From Planomonospora sp. ID82291 (GTDB lineage Bacteria > Actinomycetota > Actinomycetes > Streptosporangiales > Streptosporangiaceae): 64,000 nucleotides of DNA. The stretch's first letter is position 1; each line of letters begins with the position of its first letter. Below the pieces are notes generated by a model, which saw only the letters and a list, made by a program, of their open reading frames with translations, was not told the DNA's origin and ran no database searches. The stretch is from positions 1-64,000 of the forward strand of contig NZ_JABTEX010000002.1 of NCBI RefSeq assembly GCF_015711645.1, written 5' to 3'. Below are positions 25,992-31,332 of the stretch, piece after piece. The position numbers were made by a program, and so were the translations under genes.

Positions 25992-26549
25992 ATGGCGCTG
26001 GACGAGACGACCGAGGCACTCGCCCGCGCGGCCGCCCAGGGCGACCACCGCGCGCTGGGCGAGCTGCTCAAGCGGATCGAGCCCGAGGTGCTGCGGCACT
26101 GCGGCCGGATCCTGCCCTACCGGCAGGACGCCGAGGAGGCGTGCCAGGACACCCTGCTGGCGGTGGCCCGCAACATCGGCCGCTTCGAGGGCCGGGCCCG
26201 GTTCACCACCTGGCTGCACATCGTCACGGCGAACTGCGCCCGGACGACCTACCGCTCGCTGAAGCGCCGGGCGGCCGAGCAGAGCTCCGACGAGCTGCCG
26301 CTGCAGAAGCCCGACGTGGCCCGGGTGAGCGTGATCGCCGGGTCCCGGCTGGACCTGCTCGACGTGATGGAGGCGCTGGAGGCGGAGAAGCCCGAGCTGG
26401 CCCAGGCGCTGGTGCTGCGCGACATCTGCCAGCTCGACTACAACGAGGTGGCCGAGCAGCTCGGCATCCCGCTGGGCACCGCCAAGTCCCGCATCCACCA
26501 GGCGCGCAAGTACGTCCAGAACGCGCTGGGCGACGCCTACGGCTTCTGA
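25992..26549 (+). CDS. ECF-type RNA polymerase sigma factor
   Basis: A 185-residue sigma-70 family protein with only regions 2 and 4. Region 2 includes LPYRQDAEEACQDTLLAVARNI, which contacts core RNA polymerase, and FTTWLHIVTANCARTTYR for -10 recognition. Region 4 has LDYNEVAEQLGIPLGTAKSRIHQARKY, the -35 helix-turn-helix. No anti-sigma gene is adjacent, so its control is unknown. The ATG at 25992 follows a GGGGG run. A 14-bp repeat array begins right after its stop. Confidence 0.92.
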   Translation: MALDETTEALARAAAQGDHRALGELLKRIEPEVLRHCGRILPYRQDAEEACQDTLLAVARNIGRFEGRARFTTWLHIVTANCARTTYRSLKRRAAEQSSDELPLQKPDVARVSVIAGSRLDLLDVMEALEAEKPELAQALVLRDICQLDYNEVAEQLGIPLGTAKSRIHQARKYVQNALGDAYGF

Positions 26550-26554
26550 ACGCC

Positions 26555-26680
26555 GGTCCGGCGGCCCCGGTCCGGCGGCCCCGGTCCGGCGGCCCCGGTC
26601 CGGCGGCCCCGGTCCGGCGGCCCCGGTCCGGCGGCCCCGGTCCGGCGGCCCCGGTCCGGCGGGTGCGGTCCGGCGGGTGC
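26555..26680 (+). repeat. 14-bp tandem repeat array, nine copies
   Basis: Seven perfect copies of GGTCCGGCGGCCCC (starts 26555, 26569, 26583, 26597, 26611, 26625, 26639) and two variant copies ending GGTGC (26653, 26667). The array begins 6 bases after the sigma factor stop. Each unit contains the near-palindrome CCGGCGG, so the transcript could fold into several hairpins and may serve as a terminator. Confidence 0.95.
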
Positions 26681-26798
26681 GCGGGGCGTCCGCCGACCGG
26701 CATGTCCCGTCTCGGGAGATGAGACGGATGGCCGAAGCGGTGAACGGCCGGGGTAGAGTGCTTGCAACCTGCTCAGCAGGTTCGACAACTGAATATTG

Positions 26799-26935
26799 CT
26801 CATCCAGAGGGGTGGAGGGACCGGCCCTGCGAAGCCCCGGCAACCCTCCCGGCGCACGACCCGTGATCTGACGGGGTCGGCCGGGACAGGTGCCAATTCC
26901 GGTCTGCGACCACGGTGGCCGCAGACGAAGATGAG
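26799..26935 (+). promoter_or_regulatory. SAM-I (S-box) riboswitch upstream of thrC
   Basis: The leader has the S-box core: CCAGAGGGGTGGAGGGACCGG, then CGAAGCCCCGGCAACC and CAGGTGCCAATTCC, which are the invariant SAM-binding and pseudoknot segments. P1 is formed by CTCATC (26799-26804) and GATGAG (26930-26935). The P1 3' strand abuts and partly overlaps the GAGGGAAAGG ribosome binding region (26933-26942) of thrC, so SAM binding probably blocks translation initiation (inference). A 17-bp palindrome (AACCTGCT-C-AGCAGGTT, 26766-26782) lies just upstream. Confidence 0.92.
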
Positions 26936-26951
26936 GGAAAGGCCTCGCTTC

Positions 26952-28241
26952 ATGGCGCTTGCAAGCACCGAAACCACCACCTCGCCCCTCCGTGCCGGAG
27001 ACGCCCGTGACGGGGACTTCGGTCCGGCCGTCGCGCTCTCCTGTCGCGAGTGCGGCGCACGATCACCGCTCGGCCCGGACTTCGCCTGTACCGAGTGTTT
27101 CGGCCCCCTGGAGATCGCCTACGAGTTCCCGAAGGTCACCCGCGAGGAGATCGCCGCGGGACCGGCGAACATCTGGCGCTACCGCGCGCTGCTCCCCGTC
27201 CCCGCGGACGTGGCCGCCAAGCGCAACATGGCCCCCGGCTGGACCCGGCTGGTCAAGGCCGACAACCTCGCCCGCGAGCTGGGCCTGCGCTCCCTGCACG
27301 TGAAGGACGACTCCGGCAACCCCACGCACTCCTTCAAGGACCGCGTGGTGGCCATCGCGGTCGAGGCGGCCCGCAACTTCGGCTTCCACACCCTGTCCTG
27401 CTCCTCCACCGGCAACCTCGCGGGCGCGGTCACCGCCGCCGCCGCGCGGGCCGGACTGGACGCCTGCGTGTTCATCCCCTCGGACCTGGAGCAGGCCAAG
27501 ATCGTCATGGCCTCGGTGTACGGCGGGCGCCTGGTGGCCATCGACGGCAGCTACGACGACGTCAACCGCTTCTGCTCGGAGCTCATCGGCGACGAGCTGG
27601 GCGACCGGTGGGGCTTCGTCAACGTCAACCTCCGCCCGTACTACGCGGAGGGCTCCAAGACATTGGCCTTCGAGATCGCCGAGCAGCTCGGCTGGCGGCT
27701 CCCCGACCAGATCATCGTCCCGGTGGCCTCCGGCTCCCAGCTGACGAAGATCGACAAGGGGTTCAAGGAACTGGTCGCCCTCGGCCTCGTCGAGGACCGG
27801 CCGTACAAGATCTTCGCCGCGCAGGCCGAGGGGTGCTCGCCGGTCTCGGCGGCCTACAAGGCCGGCCACGACGTGATCCGCCCGGTCAAGCCGGACACCA
27901 TCGCCAAGTCGCTGGCGATCGGCAACCCGGCCGACGGCCCGTACGTCCTGGACATCGCCCGGCGCACCGGCGGCGCGGTGGAGGACGTGACGGACGCCGA
28001 GATCGTCGACGCGATCCGGCTGCTGGCCCGGACCGAGGGCGTCTTCGCCGAGACCGCGGGCGGCGTCACCGTCGGCGTGCTCCGCAAGCTGGTCGCCGAG
28101 GGCAGGCTCGACCCCGACGCCGAGACGGTCGTCCTCAACACCGGGGAGGGGCTCAAGACCCTCGACGCGGTCGCCGACCAGGCGCGGCCCACCGCGGTCA
28201 TCCGGCCGTCCCTTGACGCATTCCGCGCCGCCCTCGCCTGA
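26952..28241 (+). CDS. thrC: Threonine synthase
   Basis: A 429-residue PLP enzyme converting O-phosphohomoserine to threonine. An N-terminal zinc-ribbon-like segment, CRECG...CTECF, is followed by the PLP lysine motif NPTHSFKDRV, the SSTGNLAGAV phosphate loop, and VPVASGSQLTKI. The ATG at 26952 lies 9 bases after AAAGG. Control by a SAM riboswitch makes sense because threonine synthase competes with methionine synthesis for phosphohomoserine (in actinobacteria the branch is at homoserine), but such control of thrC is notable. It is followed after 23 bases by the CysO-like gene. Confidence 0.95.
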   Translation: MALASTETTTSPLRAGDARDGDFGPAVALSCRECGARSPLGPDFACTECFGPLEIAYEFPKVTREEIAAGPANIWRYRALLPVPADVAAKRNMAPGWTRLVKADNLARELGLRSLHVKDDSGNPTHSFKDRVVAIAVEAARNFGFHTLSCSSTGNLAGAVTAAAARAGLDACVFIPSDLEQAKIVMASVYGGRLVAIDGSYDDVNRFCSELIGDELGDRWGFVNVNLRPYYAEGSKTLAFEIAEQLGWRLPDQIIVPVASGSQLTKIDKGFKELVALGLVEDRPYKIFAAQAEGCSPVSAAYKAGHDVIRPVKPDTIAKSLAIGNPADGPYVLDIARRTGGAVEDVTDAEIVDAIRLLARTEGVFAETAGGVTVGVLRKLVAEGRLDPDAETVVLNTGEGLKTLDAVADQARPTAVIRPSLDAFRAALA

Positions 28242-28264
28242 GAACTCCTGAAAGGTACTGGACT

Positions 28265-28540
28265 ATGAGCGTTTCTGTGCGGATTCCGACGATTCTTCGC
28301 ACGTACACCAATGGCGCGGCCGAGGTGAGCGGTGAGGGGGCGACGCTGCGGGAGGTTCTGGAGAAGCTCGACGCGGACTTCCCCGGCATCGGCGCCCGGA
28401 TCCTCGATGAAACGGGCAAGATCCGGCGTTTTGTCAACGTTTATGTGGGAGAAGAGGACGTCCGTTTCGCCGACAACCTCGACACCGCCACGCCCTCCGG
28501 CGCGCAGATCTCCATCATCCCGGCGGTCGCCGGAGGCTGA
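28265..28540 (+). CDS. MoaD/ThiS-like sulfur carrier protein (CysO-like)
   Basis: A 91-residue ubiquitin-fold protein ending in the diagnostic Gly-Gly (IIPAVAGG). It opens with SVRIPTILRTYTNGAAEV and contains FVNVYVGEEDVRF, very close to mycobacterial CysO, which carries a C-terminal thiocarboxylate for cysteine synthesis. It is in the same operon as thrC behind a SAM riboswitch, and no CysM or Mec partner is nearby, so its sulfur acceptor is open. I believe the same thrC-carrier order occurs in Streptomyces. Confidence 0.9.
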   Translation: MSVSVRIPTILRTYTNGAAEVSGEGATLREVLEKLDADFPGIGARILDETGKIRRFVNVYVGEEDVRFADNLDTATPSGAQISIIPAVAGG

Positions 28541-28976
28541 TCCTCCGGGCCGTCCCCGGCCGCTCGTCGTCCCCGTATGAGGCCCGCGCGAGGCCCGCGC
28601 GAGGCCCGCTTGAGGCCCGCTTGAGGTCCACGGGACGCCCGCACGACACCTGCGTGACACCGCGCGACACCTGCGTGATGCCGCCGACACCCGCACGCCG
28701 CTCCGGCCGCGTGCGGGTGTCGTGCTTTGTGGCGCCCGCTCATATCTGGGGCGTGAGGAAACAATGCAATATTGAACCAAACGGTACGAGGTTAAAACGT
28801 TGTTCTCCCGACAAAGGCGGGAGTGGAGGGACGATTAGCGGATTGACTCTGTTGCCCTACGGCGTCCCACAGGTATGGTCGAGAACGATCGATGCGGACA
28901 AGGTCTTCACCGCGGAGATCGAAGGCTTCGCGAGTGGAATGGGCGTGGTCTTCAAGGCCGGTAAGAGGAGTCAGAA
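28541..28976. promoter_or_regulatory. Intergenic region / long cold-shock leader
   Basis: 436 bases with no gene. The first third has short direct repeats around 28575-28625 (GAGGCCCGC at about 10-base spacing) and GC-rich hairpins that could end the thrC operon. A less GC-rich stretch (28755-28815, with CAATATTGAACCAAACGG and GAGGTTAAAACGTTG) could hold a promoter. TTGCCC (28850-28855) and TATGGT, 16 bases apart, is another candidate. If transcription begins there, the cold shock gene has a leader of about 90-100 bases, as is usual for csp genes. Confidence 0.45.
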
Positions 28977-29177
28977 GTGGCGCAGGGCACCGTCAAATGG
29001 TTCAACGCGGACAAGGGCTACGGCTTCATCGCGGTAGACGGTGGTAAGGATGTCTTCGTCCATTACTCCGCGATCATGATGGACGGCTATCGCGCGCTCG
29101 AGCAGGGCCAGCGGGTCGAGTTCGAGATCACCCAGGGGCAGAAGGGCCCGCAGGCGGAGTCCGTCCGGGCCGTCTGA
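28977..29177 (+). CDS. Cold shock protein, CspA family
   Basis: A 66-residue single-domain nucleic-acid chaperone. RNP1 is KGYGFIAV and RNP2 is VFVHYSAI, both with the aromatic residues that stack on single-stranded RNA or DNA. The opening [14 protein letters not shown] is canonical. The GTG at 28977 has AGAGGAG about 8 bases upstream. It sits between the thrC operon and groEL, the order I recall for Streptomyces. Confidence 0.95.
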
Positions 29178-29531
29178 AAGCGACCGGGCGGCCGTCCGCG
29201 CTTTTCCCGAAGCGACCGGGCGGCCGTCCGCGCTTTTCCCGAAGCGGTCGGGCGGCCGTCCGGGTCTTCCGGGCGGTCGGGTCCTCCGGGAGCGGTCGGG
29301 CGGCCGTCGGAGCCGTCCGGAGCCGTCCGGAGCCGTCCGGAGCCGTCCGGAGCCGCCGGGGGTCCGGGCCTCCCGGGGGCGGTCGGGCGGCGGGCGGGCC
29401 GGAGACGGCCGGAGACGGCTGGAGACGGCCGGAGGCGGCTGGAGATCCGGTCGCGAGGAGATCCGTTCACCGGGTCTTCGCCGCGCGTTGACGCCTTCGC
29501 CCTGAGCGAATCCCAGCTCAGGGCGGCGTGG
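29178..29531. repeat. Repeat-rich spacer between csp and groEL
   Basis: No gene. A 32-bp unit starting GCGACCGGGCGGCCGTCC and including GCGCTTTTCCCG occurs at 29181-29212 and 29213-29244 with a degraded third copy; its dyad plus T tract may act as a doubled terminator for csp. AGCCGTCCGG (10 bp) is repeated four times at 29311-29350, and GGAGACGGCC-like 10-bp units run from about 29401 to 29450. Confidence 0.8.

Positions 29532-31332
<1,801 letters not shown>

Follow-up and report, generated by a model that had tools for sequence, protein, structure and literature searches.

The SAM-I riboswitch, the gene annotated as thrC and the small sulfur-carrier gene that follow one another at 26797-28540 of the window (the whole 64,000-nucleotide stretch of Planomonospora sp. 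ID82291 that was analysed) very probably form a riboswitch-controlled metM-metO operon making homocysteine. The observations behind this reading concern the aptamer, the identities of the genes, the genomic complement and the conservation of the metM-metO locus, and they describe a well-conserved, known methionine operon with a known riboswitch in a new genome. In Streptomyces, MetM is said to make homocysteine from O-phosphohomoserine with the downstream-encoded carrier MetO (work attributed to Hasebe and colleagues in 2024), and the enzymology and metM genetics of this pair have reportedly been established there by others. A further paper, which cites Hasebe et al. (2024), presents MetM as a novel homocysteine synthase and metO as the gene of a sulfur carrier, and describes S. 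albulus metM with an upstream SAM riboswitch (PMC12172450). The initial annotation had considered the pathway open; since the route was published for Streptomyces in 2024, riboswitch included (PMC12172450), the locus adds one more instance of a known system. Its features in the window are:

26797..26937, forward strand: SAM-I (S-box) riboswitch aptamer (RF00162, 70.3 bits; P1 formed by 26797-26804 and 26930-26937)
26927..26951, forward strand: predicted alternative (anti-P1) hairpin GAAG-A-UGAGG-[GAAAGG]-CCUCGCUUC, from folding prediction, with the Shine-Dalgarno sequence in its loop
26937..26942, forward strand: Shine-Dalgarno sequence GAAAGG of metM, which meets P1 at its 3' end (from sequence)
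26952..28241, forward strand: metM, putative PLP-dependent threonine-synthase-like homocysteine synthase, annotated thrC (TIGR00260/PALP, clade and motif)
28250..28255, forward strand: Shine-Dalgarno sequence GAAAGG of metO (from sequence)
28265..28540, forward strand: metO, MoaD/ThiS-fold sulfur-carrier protein of 91 aa with a C-terminal Gly-Gly (Pfam ThiS; PDB 3dwg_C)

A covariance-model search of the leader with RF00162, proposed as a check in the initial annotation, bore out its SAM-I riboswitch upstream of the supposed thrC: the match at 26797-26937 (+) reaches 70.3 bits (E 2.2e-14; gathering score 44.4) and covers the whole model (1-108) with the conserved core intact, which places the leader in the SAM-I class both by curated threshold and by core. 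The 7.58-Mb genome has no other SAM-I match, and the aptamer ends 14 nt from the metM ATG. In two close relatives there is a further, short SAM-I match, at 59.6 bits in one and 45.7 bits in the other, which has no counterpart in the window's genome:

L136, G151:C1:1504714-1504804: short second SAM-I match directly 5' of a GNAT-type acetyltransferase-like gene (judged by eye)
L137, G055:C13:31549-31638: short second SAM-I match

The region that separates the riboswitch from an ECF sigma factor gene contains, at 26553-26676, a 14-bp unit (CCGGTCCGGCGGCC) in nine near-perfect copies, and several other short G+C-rich arrays occur at 28578-28691 and 29178-29445.

As to its mode of action, the metM leader fits direct translational control without a terminator. 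Direct translation attenuation has been described for actinobacterial SAM-I riboswitches, with no more than 15 nt from aptamer to start codon, a ribosome-binding site at the P1 3' side and no terminator (PMC2258182); the window's leader has the 14-nt spacing, a Shine-Dalgarno sequence at P1, and no intrinsic terminator found in a scan of 26540-28990. Transcription attenuation was rejected, the terminator being absent and the leader having no room for one. The same scan, whose outcome carries little weight in an actinomycete, found no sigma-70-like promoter at 26540-28990; the initial annotation had named a promoter belonging to the carrier alone as grounds for giving up its view. In all 47 leaders compared, the start codon lies 6-18 nt past P1, and the Shine-Dalgarno sequence is usually inside or beside the P1 3' strand; the junction between P1 and the downstream sequence mostly reads GAUGAGGA followed by G, or GAUGAGGG followed by AAAGG, so that the Shine-Dalgarno sequence overlaps or touches that strand. 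In the window, GAAAGG starts on the last base of P1 and abuts it more than overlapping it. When SAM is plentiful, it would bind the leader and P1 would form, rendering the adjoining ribosome-binding site less accessible and lowering metM translation; metO would be expected to follow through co-transcription. By analogy, P1 with bound SAM is taken as the OFF state; for this organism, both the direction of the switch and its action at the level of translation are inferred. The predicted anti-P1 hairpin (-11.6 kcal/mol, z about -3) is present in the predicted MFE fold of the unliganded leader and, in the folding prediction, contests the UGAG with P1; its GAGG..CCUC pairing was seen in 24 of the 47 leaders, including those of the window's family, and it could in principle reverse the logic of the switch.

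Conservation was surveyed in 198 genomes of the class; a SAM-I riboswitch was present in 141 of them and a clear MetM in 137. Because 135 of the 146 SAM-I hits lie directly upstream of a metM homologue, the arrangement is not due to chance; the carrier is directly downstream in 98 of the 137 genomes with MetM, the survey of such pairs having been suggested beforehand. Named relatives with MetM include Streptosporangium, Nonomuraea, Microbispora, Nocardiopsis, Kitasatospora and Streptomyces. The riboswitch was kept in 20 of 20 named relatives tested. Of 80 named-relative loci, 78 have MetO (72 by pattern and six more by tblastn), and the other two are on contigs that end too soon. MetM without MetX was found in 73 genomes, MetX without MetM in 53, both in 64 and neither in eight, an uneven distribution (Fisher p 5e-8, kinship uncorrected). 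Mec is present in 133 of 137 MetM genomes vs 30 of 61 others (kinship uncorrected and confounded with CysO), and the four MetM genomes lacking it are drafts under 90% complete. Further downstream, a cold-shock-protein gene (28977-29177) stands between metO and groEL (29705-31332), which is thus two genes downstream of metO and preceded by a perfect CIRCE-type inverted repeat (TTGGCACTC-N9-GAGTGCCAA, 29567-29593), as expected for HrcA control; a cold-shock gene or groEL also lies 3' of metM in several other families.

The product of metM (429 aa; ATG at 26952, stop ending at 28241) is a PLP fold-type II (PALP) protein, named threonine synthase by NCBIfam above cut-off (TIGR00260, 282 bits vs 167), and its closest solved relatives are threonine synthases (E 1e-52). 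Furthermore, a MetM homologue of Microcystis is reported to act in vitro both as a threonine synthase and as a threonine deaminase (PMC12172450). These data speak for a true second threonine synthase, with SAM balancing the threonine and methionine branches and the carrier as a bystander, a reading that we nonetheless regard as improbable. The motif around the predicted PLP lysine K129 is NPTHSFKDR, and not the canonical NPTGSFKDR present in four solved bacterial-type threonine synthases and in the genome's own ThrC (HTGSFKD in the Arabidopsis-type chloroplast enzyme). NPT[HN]SFKDR occurs in 187 of 187 MetM sequences (183 with H, four with N; two sets in which the same genomes may recur), and both the motif and a tree with a long outgroup branch group the window protein with Streptomyces MetM, apart from canonical ThrC, in a clade that we take to be the MetM family. 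A second thrC-like gene, on another contig and beside a homoserine-kinase (ThrB)-type ORF, carries NPTGSFKDR and, judged by its sequence, is evidently the threonine synthase of the genome; because this canonical thrC-thrB pair exists, the gene at 26952-28241 is very probably not. The frequent position of the carrier directly 3' of metM across the class, the failure to find either MetX or MetA to feed another route and the homocysteine synthesis reportedly shown by others for the Streptomyces orthologue also count against a second threonine synthase. The initial proposal, a threonine synthase adjusted to the needs of the methionine branch, therefore gives way to a MetM-type enzyme. If this gene is MetM, working with the carrier MetO, then the sulfur-inserting partner, previously thought not to be adjacent, adjoins the carrier and is the supposed thrC itself.

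The genome, 99.7% complete, yielded neither a MetX-type nor a MetA/HTS-type homoserine acyltransferase. It encodes four ThiS-fold carriers and one MoeZ that combines ThiF with rhodanese domains (above cut-off for NCBIfam PRK07878), a single enzyme that, from its domains, can probably charge all four, and it holds Mec (Prok-JAB), CysO and CysM intact in one separate operon (C7:413-416 kb). In the metM-metO pathway, the MoeZ-type E1/rhodanese would activate the C-terminal Gly-Gly of MetO to a thiocarboxylate; MetM would take O-phosphohomoserine and, instead of adding water to give threonine, would add sulfur from MetO-COSH to give homocysteine, which methionine synthase would methylate. The JAMM protease Mec probably helps, either by trimming carrier tails or by releasing the product; since many carriers of the MetO type in the loci read end in GGC, not GG, a tail-trimming protease is plausible. 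Because the genome's own CysO (L008, G000:C7:414817-415086) carries Ser-Arg after its GG, a protease has to expose the Gly-Gly, and Mec, encoded next to it, is the presumed candidate. A cystathionine gamma-synthase (CGS)-type protein, PRK07811, and two further PF01053 proteins make a second homocysteine route possible. The presence of this CGS equivalog and the lack of any homoserine acyltransferase found would suit a CGS-type enzyme making homocysteine from O-phosphohomoserine as in plants, with MetM-MetO as an auxiliary, but we hold this to be very unlikely: it leaves the genome's only SAM riboswitch on metM unexplained, and the PF01053 family occurs in 193 of the 198 class genomes irrespective of MetM and may serve reverse transsulfuration.

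The carrier ends in ...PAVAGG and, as the initial annotation had measured, starts exactly 23 nt after the metM stop, with its Shine-Dalgarno sequence inside the gap. We judge the earlier suggestion that it serves methionine or homocysteine synthesis to be right. The description of it as CysO-like is apt with regard to similarity, its best solved relative being M. tuberculosis CysO (3dwg_C, E 2e-23) and its identity with the genome's own CysO being 53%, but it is not CysO, as the Mec-CysO-CysM operon is elsewhere and MetO is encoded with neither Mec nor CysM. Least probable among the alternatives is that this likeness marks a second CysO for cysteine synthesis, merely co-located with a methionine gene, given that the true CysO accompanies Mec and CysM and that MetO stays with metM, their stop and start codons overlapping in many relatives.

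Compared with known systems, the ThrC-like gene, Gly-Gly carrier and SAM riboswitch reproduce the MetM/MetO layout, with the same gene pair, order and upstream riboswitch as in named Streptomyces loci and 74-80% identity of the window protein to Streptomyces orthologues; the difference is that the window comes from another family, known here from sequence, its nearest named relative being Streptosporangium (90%). MetM shares with canonical ThrC its fold, TIGR00260 and, as proposed for the window protein, its substrate, but it differs by H or N, not G, beside the PLP lysine motif, by dozens of residues specific to its clade and by an N-terminal Cys4 segment (C31, C34, C46, C49) that the alignment with bacterial ThrC does not reach. 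The M. tuberculosis CysM-CysO-Mec system also combines a PLP fold-type II enzyme, an O-phospho amino acid and protein-thiocarboxylate sulfur; CysM uses O-phosphoserine, whereas the ThrC-type enzyme of the window would use O-phosphohomoserine, and the window's genome has the CysM system beside MetM/MetO. The MetY-type route of Wolinella uses O-acetylhomoserine. In this HcyS/HcyD/HcyF-MetY route of Wolinella succinogenes (Krishnamoorthy and Begley, 2011, as cited in PMC5764234), homocysteine synthesis likewise depends on a protein thiocarboxylate, but the carrier is linked to a MetY-type enzyme (PF01053), whereas the neighbour of MetO is ThrC-type, with O-phosphohomoserine as its proposed substrate.

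Riboswitch and metM are present with no MetO found adjoining in about 34 of the 137 MetM genomes, a count that leaves out loci on contigs ending early; the absence was read directly in 19 of these loci and, for the others, from the position of listed carrier hits. To our knowledge, such an arrangement has not been reported. It occurs in the families labelled f7, f9, f13, f17, f21, f22, f31, f35 and f37, often with groEL or a cold-shock gene 3' of metM instead, and in more than one group on the MetM tree, where well-supported branches force at least two changes (the root being unsure because of the long outgroup). The MetM motif is kept, and no residue separating metM with metO from metM without it was found among the conserved MetM columns searched; thus, the enzyme gives no sign of a changed partner. 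MetX was not found in 14 of the 34 genomes, nor MetA in any of those 14, which suggests CysO as a shared sulfur donor, and in eight of the 34 the carrier listed is a neighbour of Mec, which identifies it as CysO. Tentatively, MetM in these genomes may draw its thiocarboxylate from CysO, one pool supplying cysteine and methionine, or may use free sulfide, a proposal that we put forward with some reserve. The simplest explanation is that CysO is shared; alternatively, MetO may be distant or relocated, sulfide may be used, or an unrecognised route may operate.

Taken as metM-metO, the locus removes the anomaly of a SAM riboswitch on a threonine synthase. In many actinobacteria, automated annotation conceals the methionine pathway, and genomes without MetX or MetA resemble methionine auxotrophs yet carry metM. 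Since the SAM-I riboswitch is almost dedicated to metM in this class, it is a good marker of the pathway. Furthermore, the metM lineages without metO make it possible to test directly whether two amino-acid pathways can share one sulfur carrier.
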